NCBI RefSeq assembly: GCF_940670685.1
Contig: NZ_OW711693.1
Span: 2,356,001-2,420,000, forward strand
DNA length: 64,000 nucleotides
Source of the DNA: Anaeropeptidivorans aminofermentans
GTDB taxonomy: Bacteria; Bacillota; Clostridia; Lachnospirales; UBA5962
Direction: 5' to 3'
This document shows positions 1,946 to 32,466 of the stretch, piece by piece (positions within the stretch are counted from its first letter, which is position 1; the number at the start of each line of letters is the position of its first letter). The translations under genes and the position numbers were made by a program. The notes beneath the pieces were generated by a model. The model worked only from the letters and a program-made list of their open reading frames with translations, ran no database searches and was not told where the DNA came from.

Positions 1946-2182
1946 ATAATTACCTCCGGACATTATATTAATTTCAATTCGTCTGCATCTGTACTGTAAT
2001 CACACCTTAATCCGTTTTTATATCGTCTGTATATGTTGTCTTACGTTTATGCTTATTATTATCTATTTATACGTTACCTGCGAAAACGAAACAAGATTAA
2101 GTAACCTTGATTTTGTCTTATTTCTTTTCTGTCGTTCGTCTATTTATACGCTTTCTTTTGAAATATATTCGGTATTATATAT

Positions 2183-2662
2183 GAATACATTCCCTTCGCA
2201 AATGTATTCATAACTAAAATCAAGCCTTGCTTGATTTTGCCTTTTTTCTCTTCTGCCATTTATATATTCATACATTCCCTTCGGAAATGTATTCATAACT
2301 AAAATCAAGCCTTGCTTGATTTCGCCTTTTTTCTCTTCTGCCATTTATATATTCATACATTCCCTTCGGGAATATATTCATAACTAAAATCAAGCCTTGC
2401 TTGATTTCCCGTGCAGTCTTTCTCTCTTTTATATTCATACATTCCCTTCGGGAATATATTCATAACTAAAATCAAGCCTTGCTTGATTTCCCGTGCGGTC
2501 TTTCTCTTTTTTATATTCATACATTCCCTTCAGGAATATATTCATAACTAAAATCAAGCCTTGCTTGATTTCGCCTTTTTTCTCTTCTGCCATTTATATA
2601 TTCATACATTCCCTTCGGGAATATATTCATAACTAAAATCAAGCCTTGCTTGATTTTAGTTA
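2183..2662. repeat. Six-unit tandem array of double-hairpin repeats (family A, array 1)
   Basis: Six units follow each other at spacings of 85, 85, 82, 82 and 85 bases, measured from the ATACATTCCC motif of each (2185, 2270, 2355, 2437, 2519, 2604). Each unit holds hairpin 1 (ATACATTCCC, loop TTCG, GGAATATAT) and hairpin 2 (AAATCAAGC, loop CTT, GCTTGATTT), joined by TCATAACTA. The linker after hairpin 2 is of two kinds: a 26-base type containing CGCCTTTTTTCTCTTCTGCC and a 23-base type containing CCCGTGC. Only the sixth unit continues hairpin 2 outward into a 31-base palindrome (2631-2661). There are no unique spacers, so it is not CRISPR. The array fills the gap downstream of yqeG. Confidence 0.93.
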
Positions 2663-2742
2663 CATTATACATTTTTTCACTTTTTGTGGCAAGGTTTAAT
2701 AAATGAAACCTTAAATTTTATCCATAGAGATTTTTATTAGAG

Positions 2743-6460: not shown

Positions 6461-6712
6461 CCGTAAAATAAAAAAGGCACCTTAAATATAGGGACGAATA
6501 AATCGCGGTACCACCCTAAGTTGCGTAAAAAACAAACGCCACTCGAACCGTTAACGCCGGCATACGTGGCTGCCTACACAGAATAAACCTTCGGCAGTCA
6601 GGGTTATAAAAAGCTGCTTCAGCAAAAAGCTACTGGGGAAATCTCACCCTAATCCCCTCTCTTTGAGGCTTCTTTTGCTTACTCCTCTTTTTCCCTTTAA
6701 ATAATAATATTT
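6461..6712 (-). promoter_or_regulatory. T-box riboswitch leader of alaS
   Basis: Read on the minus strand, the leader has the invariant T-box GGGTGGTACCGCG at 6505-6517, preceded by a stem III hairpin and a long stem I region containing GAGAGGGG. It is followed by a competing terminator whose 3' arm GGTGCC (6476-6481) pairs with GGTACC inside the T-box and runs into a T tract at 6465-6475. Uncharged tRNA should stabilise the antiterminator and switch on the operon. The specifier is expected to be an alanine (GCN) codon, but I could not place it with certainty. Confidence 0.93.
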
Positions 6713-11624: not shown

Positions 11625-11696
11625 TGACCCGTAGGGGAATCGAACCCCTGTTTCAGCCGTGAGAGGGCCGTGTCTTAACCGCTTGACCAACGGGCC
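11625..11696 (-). tRNA. tRNA-Glu (anticodon CTC)
   Basis: The minus strand folds as a cloverleaf: acceptor GGCCCGT paired with ACGGGTC, D-arm with TTGGTCAAGCGGTTAAGA, anticodon stem CGGCC/GGCTG with loop CTCTCAC (anticodon CTC), and T-arm AGGGGTTCGATTCCCCT. The body matches bacterial tRNA-Glu. The CCA end is not encoded. CTC is the less usual glutamate anticodon in low-G+C Bacillota, and the gene stands alone with its own terminator. Confidence 0.94.
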
Positions 11697-15161: not shown

Positions 15162-15299
15162 TATAGTAAATTTATTATGAAGAAGTAGCAAAAGCATATT
15201 CCCGACAGGCCTAAAAACACGGATTCCCTTCGGAAACGGTACATTTTGAGCCTCCTTGAATATACGGTTTTGCTGCTATTTAACTTTAAATTTACTATA
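15162..15299. repeat. MITE-like element with TATAGTAAATTTA ends (family C, 138 bp form)
   Basis: Perfect 13-base terminal inverted repeats TATAGTAAATTTA/TAAATTTACTATA enclose AGTAGCAAAAGC and its counterpart GCTGCTATTTAAC. Between them is a block with an inner hairpin (CGGATTCCCTTCGGAAACGG) and ACATTTTGAGCCTCC. A shorter copy lacking that block lies at 31874-31955 and a longer one at 32122-32466. Confidence 0.85.
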
Positions 15300-18592: not shown

Positions 18593-19390
18593 CTAGCCCC
18601 TAAACAATTCTTCGTTTATTTCAGTGCATATATGCTTATAACGGCTTGGGTTCAAACCGTCACCGTGGGATTTGCTGATATATATGAGATATTCTATATT
18701 TCCGTCTCCGCCCTTTATGGGAGAAGGTATAATGTCTTTTACTGTAAAATTAAATCCTATAATAATATTATACATATTTTCCAGTATTTTTAAATGAATT
18801 TTTCTATTTTTGACAACGCCGTCTTTTCCTACGTTTGCCGGCCCAGCTTCAAATTGAGGTTTTATAAGGCATACAGCCTCGCCCTTTTCATTTAAAAGAG
18901 TTGAAATATTTTTTAATATTTTACCAAGAGAGATAAATGAAACATCAACTGATGCAAAGGAAATATCATCATCAATATTTACGTCTCTTATATCCGTTTT
19001 TTCCATGGATATCACTCTTTTATCATTTCTAAGGCTTTCGGCAAGCTGGTCTGTGCCTGTGTCTACGGCATATACTTTTAAAGCGCTGAATCGAAGCATA
19101 CAATCGGTAAAACCGCCTGTGGAAGCCCCAATGTCAATACAGATTTTATCCTGAAGGTTTATGGAAAAATGCTTTAAAGCTTTTTCAAGCTTATATCCGC
19201 CCCTTCCTACATATATATATTCAGGCTTTTCAACAGAAAAAATGCTATCATCAAAAAATTTAGAACCGGGAGATAAAAGCACCTTATCCTGCAGCCGAAC
19301 TCTGCCTTCTTTTATCATATCTACGGCAATATTTCTGCTTACGCCTTCCTGCTTTGAAATTAACAGATCAAGCCTTATTTTTTCAGGCAT
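18593..19390 (-). CDS. tlyA: TlyA-family rRNA 2'-O-methyltransferase
   Basis: TlyA-type enzymes methylate rRNA riboses; many are annotated as hemolysin A. The 265-residue protein has an N-terminal S4 RNA-binding domain (RLDLLISKQEGVSRNIAVDMIKEGRVRL) and an FtsJ-like methyltransferase domain with the SAM motif CIDIGASTGGFTDCMLR near 90-106. The start overlaps the dxs end by eight bases. The order dxs-tlyA-nadK-argR-recN is conserved in clostridia. Confidence 0.95.
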   Translation of the reverse strand: MPEKIRLDLLISKQEGVSRNIAVDMIKEGRVRLQDKVLLSPGSKFFDDSIFSVEKPEYIYVGRGGYKLEKALKHFSINLQDKICIDIGASTGGFTDCMLRFSALKVYAVDTGTDQLAESLRNDKRVISMEKTDIRDVNIDDDISFASVDVSFISLGKILKNISTLLNEKGEAVCLIKPQFEAGPANVGKDGVVKNRKIHLKILENMYNIIIGFNFTVKDIIPSPIKGGDGNIEYLIYISKSHGDGLNPSRYKHICTEINEELFRG

Positions 19391-21263
19391 TTTTGTTTCC
19401 GTCCTCTATTTTACTAAGTATGGTTTCCATCATTTTTTCAGTGCTTAAGCCGTAAATATGGAAAAGCTCTTCTCTTGTGCCTTGAGGTATGAATTCATCG
19501 GGAAAAGCAAATATATGATAGTTAGAAACATTGATTCCCATATCATTTGCCTGCCTTAATAAATTGCTTCCAAAGCCTCCCGAAACTACGTTTTCTTCAA
19601 ATGTAAACACATGCTGAAAGCTCTTTAAAAGCTCTGTCATTTCTTTATCTATTGGTTTTGCAAATCTTGCATTTATAAGAAGCGGGCTGTGGCCCTTTTC
19701 CTTAAGCATTCCGTAGACTTTAAAAGCTTCCTCCATCATAGAACCAAGAGCAATCAGGGCAATTTCCTTCCCTTCAAAAATCACTTCGGATTTTCCAAGC
19801 CTTATTTCAGAAATAGTGTCATGAAGGAGCATGGAAGCAGAGCCTTTGGGGTATCTTACGGAGACAGGCCCCTTATGGTCTATGGCAAATTTAATCATTT
19901 TTCTAAATTCTGCTTTATTCTTCGGAGCCATAATTACCATATTGGGCATGGAGCTTAGAAAGGATATATCAAAAAGCCCTTGATGGGTTTCTCCGTCGGC
20001 GCCTACGACACCGGCTCTGTCGATTGCAAAAACGACATTACTGTTCATAAGGCAGACATCATGAAGAAGCTGGTCATAGCTTCTCTGGAGAAAAGTTGAA
20101 TACACAGCAAAGACAGGCTTAAAACCGTTTTCTGCCATGGCAGCGGAAAAGGTTACGGCATGCGCCTCGGCAATACCCACATCGAAAAATCTTTTGGGAA
20201 ATTCCTCTTGAAATGGAGTAAGGCCTGTTCCCTCCGGCATAGCAGCCGTTACGGCAACTATTTTTTCATCGCTTCTTGCAAGCTTGCATAGTGTTTTTCC
20301 CAAAACGTCGGAATAGGTATCATATACTTTGGTTTTTAAAACCTTGCCGGTTTTAATATCAAATTTATCTATTCCATGGAATACGCAAGGGTCCTTTTCA
20401 CTCATTTTATAGCCTTTGCCCTTTTTTGTATAAACATGAAGAAATACAGGGCCTTTCATTTTTTTAGCCCTGTTGATGACATTAATAAGCTCTTCTACAT
20501 TATGGCCGTCTATGGGGCCGATATATTTAAAGCCCATTTCCTCAAATAAAATTCCCGGAACAAGGGCATATCTCACGCTGTTTTTCGTTTTTTCAGCAAA
20601 TCTTCCCAAGCTTTCGCCTACGATGGGAATGCTGTTTAATATCTTTCTTATATCATTTTTTACACCGATATATTGAGGGCTTGTTCTGATGTCGTTTAGA
20701 TGGCGGCTCATTGCCCCTACATTTTTAGATATGGACATTTGGTTGTCATTTAAAATAACCATTAAATCCGTGCCGCCTCTGCCGGCATTATTAATAGCTT
20801 CAAAGCTTAAGCCCCCCGTCATGGAGCCATCGCCTATAATGGCAGCTATTTTATATTTTTCGCCGGATAAATCCCTGCTTAAAGCCATGCCCAAAGCAGA
20901 GGATATGCTGGTGGAGCTGTGGCCTATATCAAAAAAATCATGAGGGCTTTCGTTTTTCTTAGGAAAACCCGAAAGTCCGTTAAGCTGTCTTAAGGTATCG
21001 AATTTATCTTTTCTTCCTGTAAGAATTTTATGAACATAAGCTTGATGGCCCACGTCCCATAATATTTTATCTTCGGGAGAATTAAGGCAATAATGCAAAG
21101 CCACCGTAAGCTCCACAACCCCAAGGTTTGAAGCAAGATGGCCTCCGGTTTTTGAAACAGATTTCACCAGAAAGCTTCTTATTTCTTTACAAAGCTGGGG
21201 TAAATCCTGTTTATCTATTTCCTTTAAATCCTCAGGGGAATTTATTCTATCAATATAGCGCAT
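19383..21263 (-). CDS. dxs: 1-deoxy-D-xylulose-5-phosphate synthase
   Basis: DXS joins pyruvate and glyceraldehyde-3-phosphate in a TPP-dependent step, the entry to the MEP isoprenoid pathway. The protein is about 626 residues. Motifs include HQAYVHKILTGR, the TPP motif GDGSMTGGLSFEAINNAG (about 145-162), DNQMSISKNVG, and DRAGVVGADGETHQG in the pyrimidine domain. ATG at 21263 is preferred; a GTG three codons upstream is possible. The ispA gene lies upstream across the repeat array and the PAP2 gene, so two isoprenoid steps are nearly neighbours. Confidence 0.98.
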   Translation of the reverse strand: MRYIDRINSPEDLKEIDKQDLPQLCKEIRSFLVKSVSKTGGHLASNLGVVELTVALHYCLNSPEDKILWDVGHQAYVHKILTGRKDKFDTLRQLNGLSGFPKKNESPHDFFDIGHSSTSISSALGMALSRDLSGEKYKIAAIIGDGSMTGGLSFEAINNAGRGGTDLMVILNDNQMSISKNVGAMSRHLNDIRTSPQYIGVKNDIRKILNSIPIVGESLGRFAEKTKNSVRYALVPGILFEEMGFKYIGPIDGHNVEELINVINRAKKMKGPVFLHVYTKKGKGYKMSEKDPCVFHGIDKFDIKTGKVLKTKVYDTYSDVLGKTLCKLARSDEKIVAVTAAMPEGTGLTPFQEEFPKRFFDVGIAEAHAVTFSAAMAENGFKPVFAVYSTFLQRSYDQLLHDVCLMNSNVVFAIDRAGVVGADGETHQGLFDISFLSSMPNMVIMAPKNKAEFRKMIKFAIDHKGPVSVRYPKGSASMLLHDTISEIRLGKSEVIFEGKEIALIALGSMMEEAFKVYGMLKEKGHSPLLINARFAKPIDKEMTELLKSFQHVFTFEENVVSGGFGSNLLRQANDMGINVSNYHIFAFPDEFIPQGTREELFHIYGLSTEKMMETILSKIEDGNKNA

Positions 21264-21365
21264 ATGCACCACTTTCCAATCGTATTATCTCATAAACATA
21301 AGGCTTGAACGTGCGCACTCTTCATTCAATAAAAGCAAACGCCGTTTAACTTTATTATAGGACTC

Positions 21366-21874
21366 TTTAGCCTTTCTCGCATTCATACATTTCCCTTCGT
21401 GAAATGTATGAATGTAATAATCAAGCTTCCCTTGATTTTGATGTAGGGCTCTTTTGCCCTTGACCCATTCATACATTTCCCTTCGTGAAATGTATTCATG
21501 TAATAATCAAGCTTCCCTTGATTTTGATATATTGTTCTTTACCCCTTGACCCATTCATACATTCCCCTTCGTGAAATGTATTCATGTAATAATCAAGCTC
21601 CGCTTGATTTTGATATATTGTTCTTTACCCCTTGACCCATTCATACATTTCCCTTCGTGAAATGTATTCATGTAATAATCAAGCTTCGCTTGATTTTAAT
21701 ATAGGGCTCTTTTGCCCTTGACCCATTCATACATTTCCCTTCGTGAAATGTATTCATGTAATAATCAAGCTTCGCTTGATTTTAATATAGGGCTCTTTTG
21801 CCCTTGACCCATTCATACATTTCCCTTCGTGAAATGTATTCATGTAATAATCAAGCTTCGCTTGATTATTACAT
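21366..21874. repeat. Six-unit tandem array of double-hairpin repeats (family A, array 2)
   Basis: Six units of about 86 bases each hold hairpin 1 (ATACATTTCCC, loop TTCG, TGAAATGTAT), a joint TCATGTAAT, hairpin 2 (AATCAAGC, loop TTC, GCTTGATT) and a linker ending CTTGACCC. The linker has two versions; one contains a third small hairpin (AGGGC-TCTTTT-GCCCT). The first two units carry CCC instead of CG at the hairpin-2 tip. Only the last unit extends hairpin 2 into a 33-base perfect palindrome (21842-21874), which covers the stop codon of the PAP2-like gene. The design parallels array 1 at 2183-2662, including the copy number of six. Confidence 0.93.
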
Positions 21875-22321
21875 ATTATAGGCCGCTACGGATACAACGA
21901 TGCCGAGAACGGCGCCTGCCGCAACCTCAACGGGACTATGGCCGAGAAGCTCTTTAAGCTTTTTATCGAGAACGATGCCTGTATTTTCGATATTTGCCAC
22001 AAGTTTATTTATGATTTCCGCCTGTTTTCCTGCGGCTCTTCTTACCCCTGCGGCGTCATACATAACAACCATGCTTATAACGGCGCATATGGCAAAGGCC
22101 GTAGAGTCAAAGCCTTCAAGAAGGCCGACGGAAGTAGACATTGCCGAAACAAAAGACGAATGGGAGCTTGGCATTCCTCCGGAGCTTATCATAAGGGCAA
22201 GGCTTAATCTGCGTTCTTTTTTAAACTCAATCATAATTTTAATAAGCTGAGCAATGGCCCATGAAAATGAAGCTGTCCAAAAGATGCTGTTATTTATAAT
22301 CTGATTTATATACTTCAACAA
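21869..22321 (-). CDS. Divergent PAP2-family membrane protein
   Basis: The 150-residue integral membrane protein belongs to the divergent PAP2 (YuiD-like) family, related to phosphatidic-acid phosphatases. It has a GGMPSSHSSFVSAMSTSVG motif (about 47-65) and GHSPVEVAAGAVLGIVVS near the C-terminus, which correspond to the phosphatase SxxxH-type motifs. The substrate is unknown; undecaprenyl or isoprenyl diphosphate would fit the isoprenoid neighbours ispA and dxs, but this is inference. The stop codon lies within the terminal palindrome of the repeat array. Confidence 0.85.
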   Translation of the reverse strand: MLKYINQIINNSIFWTASFSWAIAQLIKIMIEFKKERRLSLALMISSGGMPSSHSSFVSAMSTSVGLLEGFDSTAFAICAVISMVVMYDAAGVRRAAGKQAEIINKLVANIENTGIVLDKKLKELLGHSPVEVAAGAVLGIVVSVAAYNM

Positions 22322-23243: not shown

Positions 23244-23490
23244 AATCTTCTTCTCCTTCTGTATCAAAGGGAGTTTCTTTAAAAAGGCCGTCAGCTTGTT
23301 CCTTGAGTACAAGCACCTCTTTTTTTACTGTTTTAAGCTCTTTATCAAGAAATACGCTGATTTCAATGCCTTCCTTGTAAAGCTTTAAAGATTCGTCTAT
23401 GGAAATATCATTATCCAATAAATCGGCTATTTCTTCAAGCCTTGAAAAAGCGTCTTCAAAATTAAGTTTTTTTCTGGCCATTATAATCAC
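23236..23490 (-). CDS. xseB: Exodeoxyribonuclease VII small subunit
   Basis: XseB is the small subunit of ExoVII, which degrades single-stranded DNA to oligonucleotides. The 84-residue protein contains the family core FEDAFSRLEEIADLLDNDISIDESLKLYKEGIE and ends in an acidic tail. It follows xseA after 163 bases and overlaps ispA. Confidence 0.95.
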   Translation of the reverse strand: MIIMARKKLNFEDAFSRLEEIADLLDNDISIDESLKLYKEGIEISVFLDKELKTVKKEVLVLKEQADGLFKETPFDTEGEEDYE

Positions 23491-23653
23491 CCTTTAAAAT
23501 AAAGTAAATTCCACCCAAGGAAGTAATAAAAATCTATTTTCATAAACGGCTTAAATAGATAAACCCTATATTTAAACCATTCAAACATATGATTTTTTTA
23601 CTGTTTCATTTTTAAATTCACTATAATTCAGTGTTTGAAAAAAACTTTTGTTT

Positions 23654-26098: not shown

Positions 26099-26425
26099 AA
26101 AAACCTCCCTATATCATAATCATCGTTTTTATTCATAGTATGTGCCAAATAAATAATAGTATATGCTTTTTTGTAATGTTTAAGAAAAATACTTGCTTTA
26201 TATATACGGGTTTAATGTTTGGATGTATTCGTAAACCAAAGCAATTTATAGATGCTTATACCCAATTGTATCATAAATCTAATTTTTACTCATGCATTTT
26301 ACTGCGTAAAATGCATCGGAGGGTGCTGCAAAATTTATTTTGCAACACCCCTATTATACCATATCTGGCTTATTTTGCAATCTTTTTGGCTTTATGCTGC
26401 ATCTTTTTATATCCTTTGAAAAATC
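26099..26425. other. Intergenic region with two strong hairpins
   Basis: No gene is supported. At 26293-26317 a hairpin ATGCATTTTA/TAAAATGCAT is followed immediately by a second at about 26323-26350 (GGGTGCTGCAAAAT/ATTTTGCAACACCC). The paired layout resembles the double-hairpin repeats elsewhere in the window but the arms differ. Confidence 0.45.
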
Positions 26426-27062: not shown

Positions 27063-27309
27063 CTTATCTACCCCCTTGATTAGAATTGTATCTTCGAGCA
27101 TTGTCGTGTGCAGTAAACAAATTTAAAAATAAGCAAATTAACCCTATAGGGTTTTGTTCTTCTAAATTTGTCTACCTAAATGCCCGGATGCATTTTAAAG
27201 CAAAACAAGATATATGCTTTTGTTACTGTAAAACTAATTTGTTTTACTATATATGCATCGGCAAAGGCTTTTAAAAGCCCTTGCTATTTCATAAGCGTAG
27301 GCTCTGCTC

Positions 27310-27369
27310 ATACATTTCACGAAGTGAAATGTATTCGTGGATAAAGCTAAGCAAAGCTTAGTTTTATCC
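27310..27369. repeat. Solo double-hairpin repeat (family A)
   Basis: Hairpin 1 (ATACATTTCAC/GTGAAATGTAT, 27310-27334) is followed by TCGT and hairpin 2 (GGATAAAGCTAAGC/GCTTAGTTTTATCC, 27339-27369). The order and spacing match the array units at 2.2 and 21.4 kb, but hairpin 2 has different bases with compensating changes. A half-copy (AAAATCAAGT/ACTTGATTTT) lies at about 27449-27473. The 27063-27543 gap holds no gene. Confidence 0.8.
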
Positions 27370-27543
27370 ATATTATAGCATAATTTAGGCTTTTTATCAT
27401 GCATTTCTTTTATAAAAACATGAATATAAAACCCATCTTTCCATAAATAAAATCAAGTTATAACTTGATTTTAATACAGTATACCATATACAGAATCTAT
27501 GGTCAACAAACCTGGAGTTAACGCCATTGTGTTATCAATCGTA

Positions 27544-29760: not shown

Positions 29761-29853
29761 ATAAAAGCTCTCCTTCTTATATCTATATAAATAAAATATT
29801 ACTTAAGCTATTCAATATATTAACACCTATGATTTTCGTTGTAAAGCCAAGTT

Positions 29854-29968
29854 ATACTCGAATAAAAGTGAAATAGTAGGATTATAAATTTGCTTTTCCT
29901 TGACTTTATGCCTTCTTGGAGCCTGTTCCTTACTGCGGAAGAAAAGCAAATTTACTACATGTTATAAA
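29854..29968. repeat. MITE-like palindromic element (family B, copy 2, inverted)
   Basis: This is the reverse-complement relative of the element at 10620-10744. It shares the ends TAAATTTGCTTTTCCTTGA and GCGGAAGAAAAGCAAATTTA and the middle CTTCTTGGAGCC. The outer TACTCGAATAAAAGT segment is also shared on one side. No coding capacity. Confidence 0.85.
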
Positions 29969-32121: not shown

Positions 32122-32466
32122 GGTATAGTAAGTTTAAAAGAAAGAGCAACAAAACCATATATTCGCGAGGATTCAAAATGTGTTTTAGAAGAAATATAAG
32201 AAAGCGCCTTTGTGAAACTGCCTTTATCTGATTTTATATATTGAAAGGCTTATATCTGTTACGGTATAAAGGCAATTTCACTATGTTTCCAAAGGAAATC
32301 CGTGCTTTTCTACGAAACGAACTTGGAAAAGAACACGGACGTAAGCCTGCAAATCTCTTTTAAGTGAGCGATTTCTTATCGTTATCAAACTTATTTTTGT
32401 TTGGTAACGGTGAATCTTTAATGAATCGGTTTTTGTTGCTTCTTTATAAGAAACTTACCATATTCC
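32122..32466. repeat. Long family C relative (about 345 bp)
   Basis: The inverted ends, GGTATAGTAAGTTT plus AAGAGCAACAAAACC on the left and GGTTTTTGTTGCTTCTTTAT plus AAACTTACCATATTCC on the right, pair over nearly 40 bases with some mismatches. The segment CATATATTCGCGAGGATTCA is the complement of a block in the 15162-15299 element. I find no ORF of note inside. The rest of the 31956-32500 gap shows nothing recognisable. Confidence 0.7.

Follow-up and report, generated by a model that had tools for sequence, protein, structure and literature searches.

The six tandem repeats that lie between dxs and a gene of the divergent PAP2 family are probably a stack of small, non-autonomous mobile cassettes, which insert at the -10 box of sigma-A promoters without destroying them. 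The repeats, termed array 2 here, are part of a stretch of 64,000 nucleotides (the window) of the 3.76-Mb genome of Anaeropeptidivorans aminofermentans (G000). The array is read functionally on the minus strand, both its ends are -10 boxes, and it belongs to a promoter-linked family that occupies about 70 places in this genome and has look-alikes in other genera; all of these features were missed in the original prediction for this DNA.

Organization of array 2

The array and its neighbouring genes have the following layout in window coordinates.

19383-21272, minus strand: dxs, 1-deoxy-D-xylulose-5-phosphate synthase (Pfam PF13292, E 6e-123)
21354-21359, minus strand: inner -10 box P2 (TATAAT, from the sequence), left end of array 2
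21360-21874, minus strand: six tandem cassettes in 86-bp units, between both -10 boxes
21385-21409, 21471-21495, 21557-21581, 21643-21667 and 21729-21753, minus strand: hairpin 1 of the other units of array 2
21815-21839, minus strand: hairpin 1 of unit 6 (from the sequence and covariation, including the outer Y-R pair across a 2x2 loop)
21842-21874, minus strand: full-length hairpin 2 of the last unit, a 33-nt palindrome (15 bp and a 3-nt loop)
21869-22321, minus strand: divergent PAP2 family (DUF212) gene, its 3' end entered by array 2 (Pfam PF02681, E 3e-50)
21875-21880, minus strand: outer -10 box P1 (TATAAT, from the sequence), right end of array 2

The array is real and consists of six 86-bp units with two hairpins each. 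Tandem Repeats Finder places it at 21356-21867, with a period of 86, 6.0 copies and 93% matches, in line with the six units predicted; the final 33-base palindrome is also present. The start of the predicted span (21366-21874) is better placed at 21354 or 21360, given the bounding TATAAT boxes. On the plus strand the order within a unit is linker, hairpin 1, hairpin 2, where hairpin 1 is ATACATTTC-7 nt-GAAATGTAT and hairpin 2 is AATCAAGC-TTC-GCTTGATT. The palindrome of the last unit begins directly after P1 on the minus strand, while in the internal units hairpin 2 is shortened and the -10 box of the linker is lost. Compared with dinucleotide shuffles, the z-score for folding is about -8 on either strand for the unit that contains the long palindrome and -4.5 to -5.8 for an internal unit. 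In unit 1 (21385-21419), as in a few other copies in the genome, one side of the loop in hairpin 1 is altered and the stem is perfect, the 2x2 TC/TC mismatch being converted to full pairing by GTATGAATG in place of GTATTCATG. Array 1 and the array at 140230 likewise begin with a unit of the perfect form. This looks like palindrome repair.

The gene downstream of array 2 is dxs, which is co-directional with it and has its start codon (GTG 21272) 82 bp from P2. On the other side, the stop codon of the DUF212 gene (TAA, 21869-21871) falls within the 33-nt palindrome, as had been predicted. The DUF212 domain is complete, reaching residue 143 of 150, and the last codons and the stop derive from the -10 box and the cassette, so the earlier idea that the insertion supplied the stop fits. 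P1 itself lies in the last DUF212 codons, with neither the TG extension nor a -35 element, and is an exception within the cassette family.

The cassette family in the genome

A DNA search of the genome gave 66 matches; with a covariance model (CM), for which 28 final or single units were used, the number rose to 132. About 130 units are dispersed over 69 places, 48 of them with a single unit, eight with two, and the remainder with three to ten; six is therefore not a constant copy number. The flanks of these copies are unrelated to one another. The largest stack (L049, G000:2585409-2586314) has ten units in two groups, with a unit of diverged hairpin 1 between them. The other copies in the window are as follows.

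2174-2669, minus strand: array 1, six units, with TATAAT boxes at 2174-2179 and 2664-2669
26257-26364, minus strand: single copy, CM 91.8 bits, in which the place of hairpin 2 is taken by an unrelated palindrome of the GGGTG-TTGCAAAA type
27275-27383, minus strand: single copy, CM 104.5 bits
48167-48275, plus strand: single copy, sense on plus, CM 105.1 bits
50835-50944, plus strand: single copy, sense on plus, CM 81.5 bits

Array 1, which lies upstream of a 95-aa minus-strand ORF, has the same plan as array 2 and likewise six units, as the prediction stated. Linkers are alike inside one array and different between arrays. The internal copies of hairpin 2 are shortened and, in most arrays, the internal linkers have no intact -10 box, while the unit at the right end (in the plus-strand view) retains the full palindrome, followed by YATTATAYCATAA. 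On the sense strand the unit reads (TATAAT)-hairpin 2-hairpin 1-linker-TTATGRTATAAT.

The only near genome is the MAG UBA11329 (G057), from which the array 2 locus is absent. Its contigs C67, C81, C126, C167 and C177 are 99-100% identical to G000 and hold the same cassette copies, and no empty G000 site was obtained among them. Since the dxs match on another of its contigs is only about 64% identical, this MAG is probably a mixture of two species. Exact-pattern scans for the cassette gave one MAG contig and no viral contigs.

Linkage to promoters

In 56 of the 69 places (p = 2e-7) the cassette lies upstream of the gene on its sense side and runs in the same direction, while the orientation of the gene on the opposite flank is unbiased (38/69, p = 0.47); the orientations come from simple ORF calls and are approximate. 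As a background, the co-directional share is 56% for the intergenic TATAAT hexamers of the window. At the right end, 48 of 76 places have an exact ATTATA (TATAAT in the sense direction) and 62 have it with at most one mismatch, compared with 0.3% and 3.0%, respectively, at random positions of the window. The outer -10 box carries the extended TG in about 70% of the places, compared with 5% of background intergenic TATAAT hexamers. Upstream of it, in the unique flank, a -35 element (at least four of six letters at the right spacing) is present in 22 of 66 places (33%), against 15% in the shuffled sequences used as controls; the same test across the G000 places gave no -35 signal for the inner -10 box. 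By these motifs, which lie in flanks that are specific to each place, the outer TATAAT is a predicted promoter in most places, array 2 excepted. The genes downstream are functionally unrelated and, across the genomes with cassettes, include the housekeeping genes pyrH, alaS, lepA and dxs.

Hairpin structure and covariation

Covariation analysis, the check that the prediction had itself proposed, gave a strong signal in both hairpins, and none of 500 shuffles reached the observed values. Over the 28 final or single units, 19 of the 25 pairs have changed on both sides and 96% of the cells pair; neither shuffles nor slid structures come near this. The two hairpins vary in different ways. In hairpin 2 all 15 pairs covary across the copies, and the sequence varies freely, to the extent that some copies (2129033 and window 26257) have an unrelated palindrome. 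In hairpin 1 the sequence is kept, with a conserved 2x2 TC/TC loop that is a tandem G-A on the sense (minus) strand and that is closed by C-G in 16 copies and by T-A in 11. The TTCG-type loop that had been proposed as a shared feature is not one, since inverted GAA, GCA and other loops were found; a UUCG tetraloop was likewise rejected as a conserved feature, because the loop differs between copies and is inverted in some of them.

Among the mismatches of hairpin 1, those that read as G-U in the sense direction predominate (45 vs 23, p = 0.01), while hairpin 2 has no strand bias (51 vs 52) and few wobble intermediates. The hairpins are likely to be under selection for structure, as was predicted from the compensating changes between the two arrays. 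For hairpin 2, given its few wobble intermediates and lack of strand bias, repair of imperfect palindromes by template switching during replication could contribute to the covariation.

The strand bias in hairpin 1 and its sense-strand tandem G-A, together with the covariation in both hairpins and the co-directional position at promoters, would suit a cis-regulatory RNA leader, in which the hairpins are selected as a 5' UTR (for example for transcript stability or protein binding) and the -10 boxes represent no more than the promoter of the gene. This explanation is nevertheless improbable. The palindrome starts 1 nt after TATAAT, which would leave its first four or five, strongly covarying pairs ahead of where transcription normally starts; hairpin 2, in addition to being without strand bias, can be swapped for unrelated palindromes; the downstream genes share no function; the same promoters are free of cassettes in sister species; and an Rfam match is absent. 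Mobility borne by the transcript is also unlikely, since the first nucleotides after TATAAT would be outside it.

Cassettes of the same plan in other genera

The G000 model gave only three weak matches, in two genomes, when it was run against 56 others. One of them, in a genome of the same family (G005), is a 106-bp segment duplicated exactly in tandem; its plan is the same although its sequence differs, and this match led to the recognition of a plan that is shared. A pattern that demands both -10 boxes, 66-96 bp apart, is found in 24 of the 392 genomes of the order, compared with two for the reversed-pattern control. Multicopy hairpin families of unrelated sequence, with two to nine copies each, are present in G056, G320, G066, G351, G382, G349, G038, G146 and G005; pattern hits with a single copy may be due to chance. 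The cassettes in these other genomes are co-directional with the gene in 26 of 29 cases, and a -35 signal is present in the unique flank in 38%, vs 14%. In G056, two unrelated types of cassette stand in tandem inside one promoter.

Empty and filled promoters

Five genes provide pairs of filled and empty promoters, all from the cassette families of three other genera, outside G000. At pyrH, G056 is filled and its sister G014, with the same neighbouring gene, is empty; the promoter consists of CTTGC, 17-18 nt and the -10 box, which is followed directly by the leader in G014 and by cassettes in G056. The promoter of a rhamnulokinase-like gene is filled in G066 and empty in G046 and G159, with the leader ...AAACAAAACAACA... 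or its equivalent retained, and that of lepA is filled in G066 and empty in G159. At alaS (filled in G038, empty in G079 and G106) the last -10 box and the ribosome site are about equally far apart in the filled and empty forms. The fifth gene is filled in G038 and empty in G106, and its upstream flanks are closely similar. In all five pairs, the native TATAAT (or its equivalent) is followed directly by the cassette, which has a TATAAT at its far end.

At the level of sequence, this comparison shows that the cassettes are placed precisely 3' of the -10 box, point in the direction of the promoter, renew the -10 box and stack. Insertion is more likely than precise loss, because two relatives are empty at two of the loci. 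The predicted insertion is thus supported by empty sites in the same-plan families of other species, and not by array 2 itself. TATAAT alone is common to both ends. Since the letters that precede the two boxes differ in filled sites, the repeated part is a hexamer at most, and both a 6-bp duplication and a box carried by the element are compatible with it. A target duplication that spans all 12 bp of the -10 motif was rejected, because the place-specific letters of the outer and inner -10 boxes in G000 are uncorrelated.

The homogeneity of arrays, which differ from place to place, and the exact 106-bp duplication in G005 might also reflect local tandem duplication or slippage of promoter segments, spread without any transposition by recombination and shared ancestry. 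Such an origin is very improbable in view of the roughly 70 dispersed copies with unrelated flanks, the precision of the empty sites and the promoter in which two cassette types unrelated to each other are stacked.

Proposed mechanism

As mobile DNA, the cassette would consist, on its sense strand, of hairpin 2, hairpin 1, the linker and a 3'-terminal extended -10 box, TTATGRTATAAT. Its point of entry into a sigma-A promoter would be directly 3' of the TATAAT hexamer, so that the old promoter, with its -35 and -10 elements, reads into the cassette, while the terminal -10 box of the cassette comes to lie at the original distance from the gene and the promoter is preserved. The inserted end would again be a target, which would allow the same or other types of cassette to stack head to tail. 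Later, internal -10 boxes and lower stems would be lost and the units homogenised within the array. The G000 family presumably moved by the same route as the cassettes of the other genera.

A folded single DNA strand may be captured at an open promoter, with the melted non-template strand as the target and the hairpins as handles for a mobilising enzyme; by analogy, a single-strand route of the IS200/IS605 kind is our best guess for the movement. Effects on the downstream gene are probable, through a new, hairpin-rich 5' leader and a second promoter, and would be secondary. The sequences point to an undescribed kind of promoter-seeking mobile DNA. More tentatively, they may represent a new class, order-wide in Clostridia-like bacteria and made up of many families of unrelated sequence, in which a folded single strand is inserted 3' of TATAAT at the melted -10 region, on the non-template strand of the open complex, keeps the promoter alive with its own -10 box and accepts further cassettes. 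Entering promoters and yet preserving them would be a neat, harmless way to spread, comparable to that of mobile elements by which a tRNA gene is restored. Dozens of unrelated genes, housekeeping genes included, would have acquired a hairpin leader and additional start sites, and one rule would account for a class of intergenic repeats.

The sequence TTATG resembles a XerD arm. Recombination of the Xer/dif type was considered for this reason and rejected, since the junction is at the far end of TATAAT.

Comparison with known systems

Segments with promoter activity, described as putative mobile promoters ("promoter propagation"), spread within genomes as the cassettes appear to do, and the promoter motifs and position of the cassette fit such a role. 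To our knowledge, that work includes neither a hairpin cassette flanked by a pair of -10 boxes nor a precise insertion on the 3' side of TATAAT. Nothing alike was found in the open-access literature on insertions into Pribnow boxes, hairpin repeats of Lachnospiraceae or transposition into open complexes.

REPINs, with their RAYT, and derivatives of IS200/IS605 are likewise short hairpin elements that are moved as single strands (PMC8049555, PMC5934647). IS608 inserts as single-stranded DNA with subterminal hairpins, 3' of a tetranucleotide that is retained in the left flank (PMC5934647), and in the pairs from three other genera the cassettes also insert 3' of a short, constant motif that stays behind in the flank. 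Unlike the REPIN, with its inverted REP pair around a spacer, the cassette has two unrelated hairpins in tandem; unlike IS200/IS605 derivatives, it targets an extended -10 promoter, and Y1 was not found in some of its carriers.

A more specific form of the mobile-cassette explanation would make the cassettes non-autonomous Y1 HUH elements of the IS200/IS605 type, like REPINs or PATEs, whose sense strand, once folded, would be excised by cuts on the 3' side of the TATAAT at each end and joined in behind a different TATAAT. The logic is that of IS608 (PMC5934647), and G000 has 26 matches to Y1 transposases (e.g. 974778-975134, 912279-912635 and 3028208-3028564). This form is unlikely, however. 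Y1 was not found in the carriers G005, G066 and G351, the ends of the resident IS200 copies inspected are unlike the cassette, and the single nucleotide between TATAAT and hairpin 2 gives no space for an IS608-style 5' guide. Because of the first two points, the cassettes are not filed under IS200/IS605. Three IS200 copies lie within 400 bp of a cassette, and one is inserted into the right end of the cassette at 911997. None of three nearby IS200 copies that were compared is a likely parent, since their ends are unrelated and at least one of them has just inserted into a cassette.

BOX elements of Streptococcus pneumoniae are also small, dispersed and hairpin-forming, with a middle module in variable numbers of tandem copies (PMC3049150); they are transcribed, have no known mobilising enzyme and are over-represented between convergent genes, with no promoter target reported (PMC3049150). 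The BOX element is modular (boxA-boxB-boxC) and has distinct ends (PMC3049150), whereas the cassette is repeated as an entire unit and is located at -10 boxes. The end units are of the internal type, save for the long palindrome and the -10 boxes, and have no end modules like boxA or boxC.

Correia elements and other promoter-carrying MITEs are likewise small, AT-rich and located upstream of genes, with promoter sequences of their own, but they have terminal inverted repeats and target duplications (PMC10969869) where the cassette has direct -10 boxes as its ends. Terminal inverted repeats are absent from the cassette, since RTGAATAAAATC and TTATGRTATAAT, its two ends on the sense strand, do not match each other in inverted orientation. 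It is MITE-like in being short and non-coding, in occupying about 70 places and in having empty sites in the sister families. BrickBuilt of Porphyromonas gingivalis, also MITE-like, holds folding tandem repeats as the cassette array does, but these are 23-nt repeats within a leader and a tail, without a promoter target (PMC4596501).

Other elements in the window

No cassette matched Rfam above the gathering score; the window yields only one T-box leader (6487-6705, minus strand) and one tRNA gene (11625-11696, minus strand). Other dispersed repeats of about 130 bp are located near 15162-15292, 23490-23626, 29850-29968 and 32284-32466 and have many relatives in the G000 genome and among G057 contigs. 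Another intergenic repeat, GAAACAAATTAATTACAGTAACAAAAACCATATATTT and its variants, lies beside several cassettes (window 27.1-27.3 kb, L044, L053 and L033).
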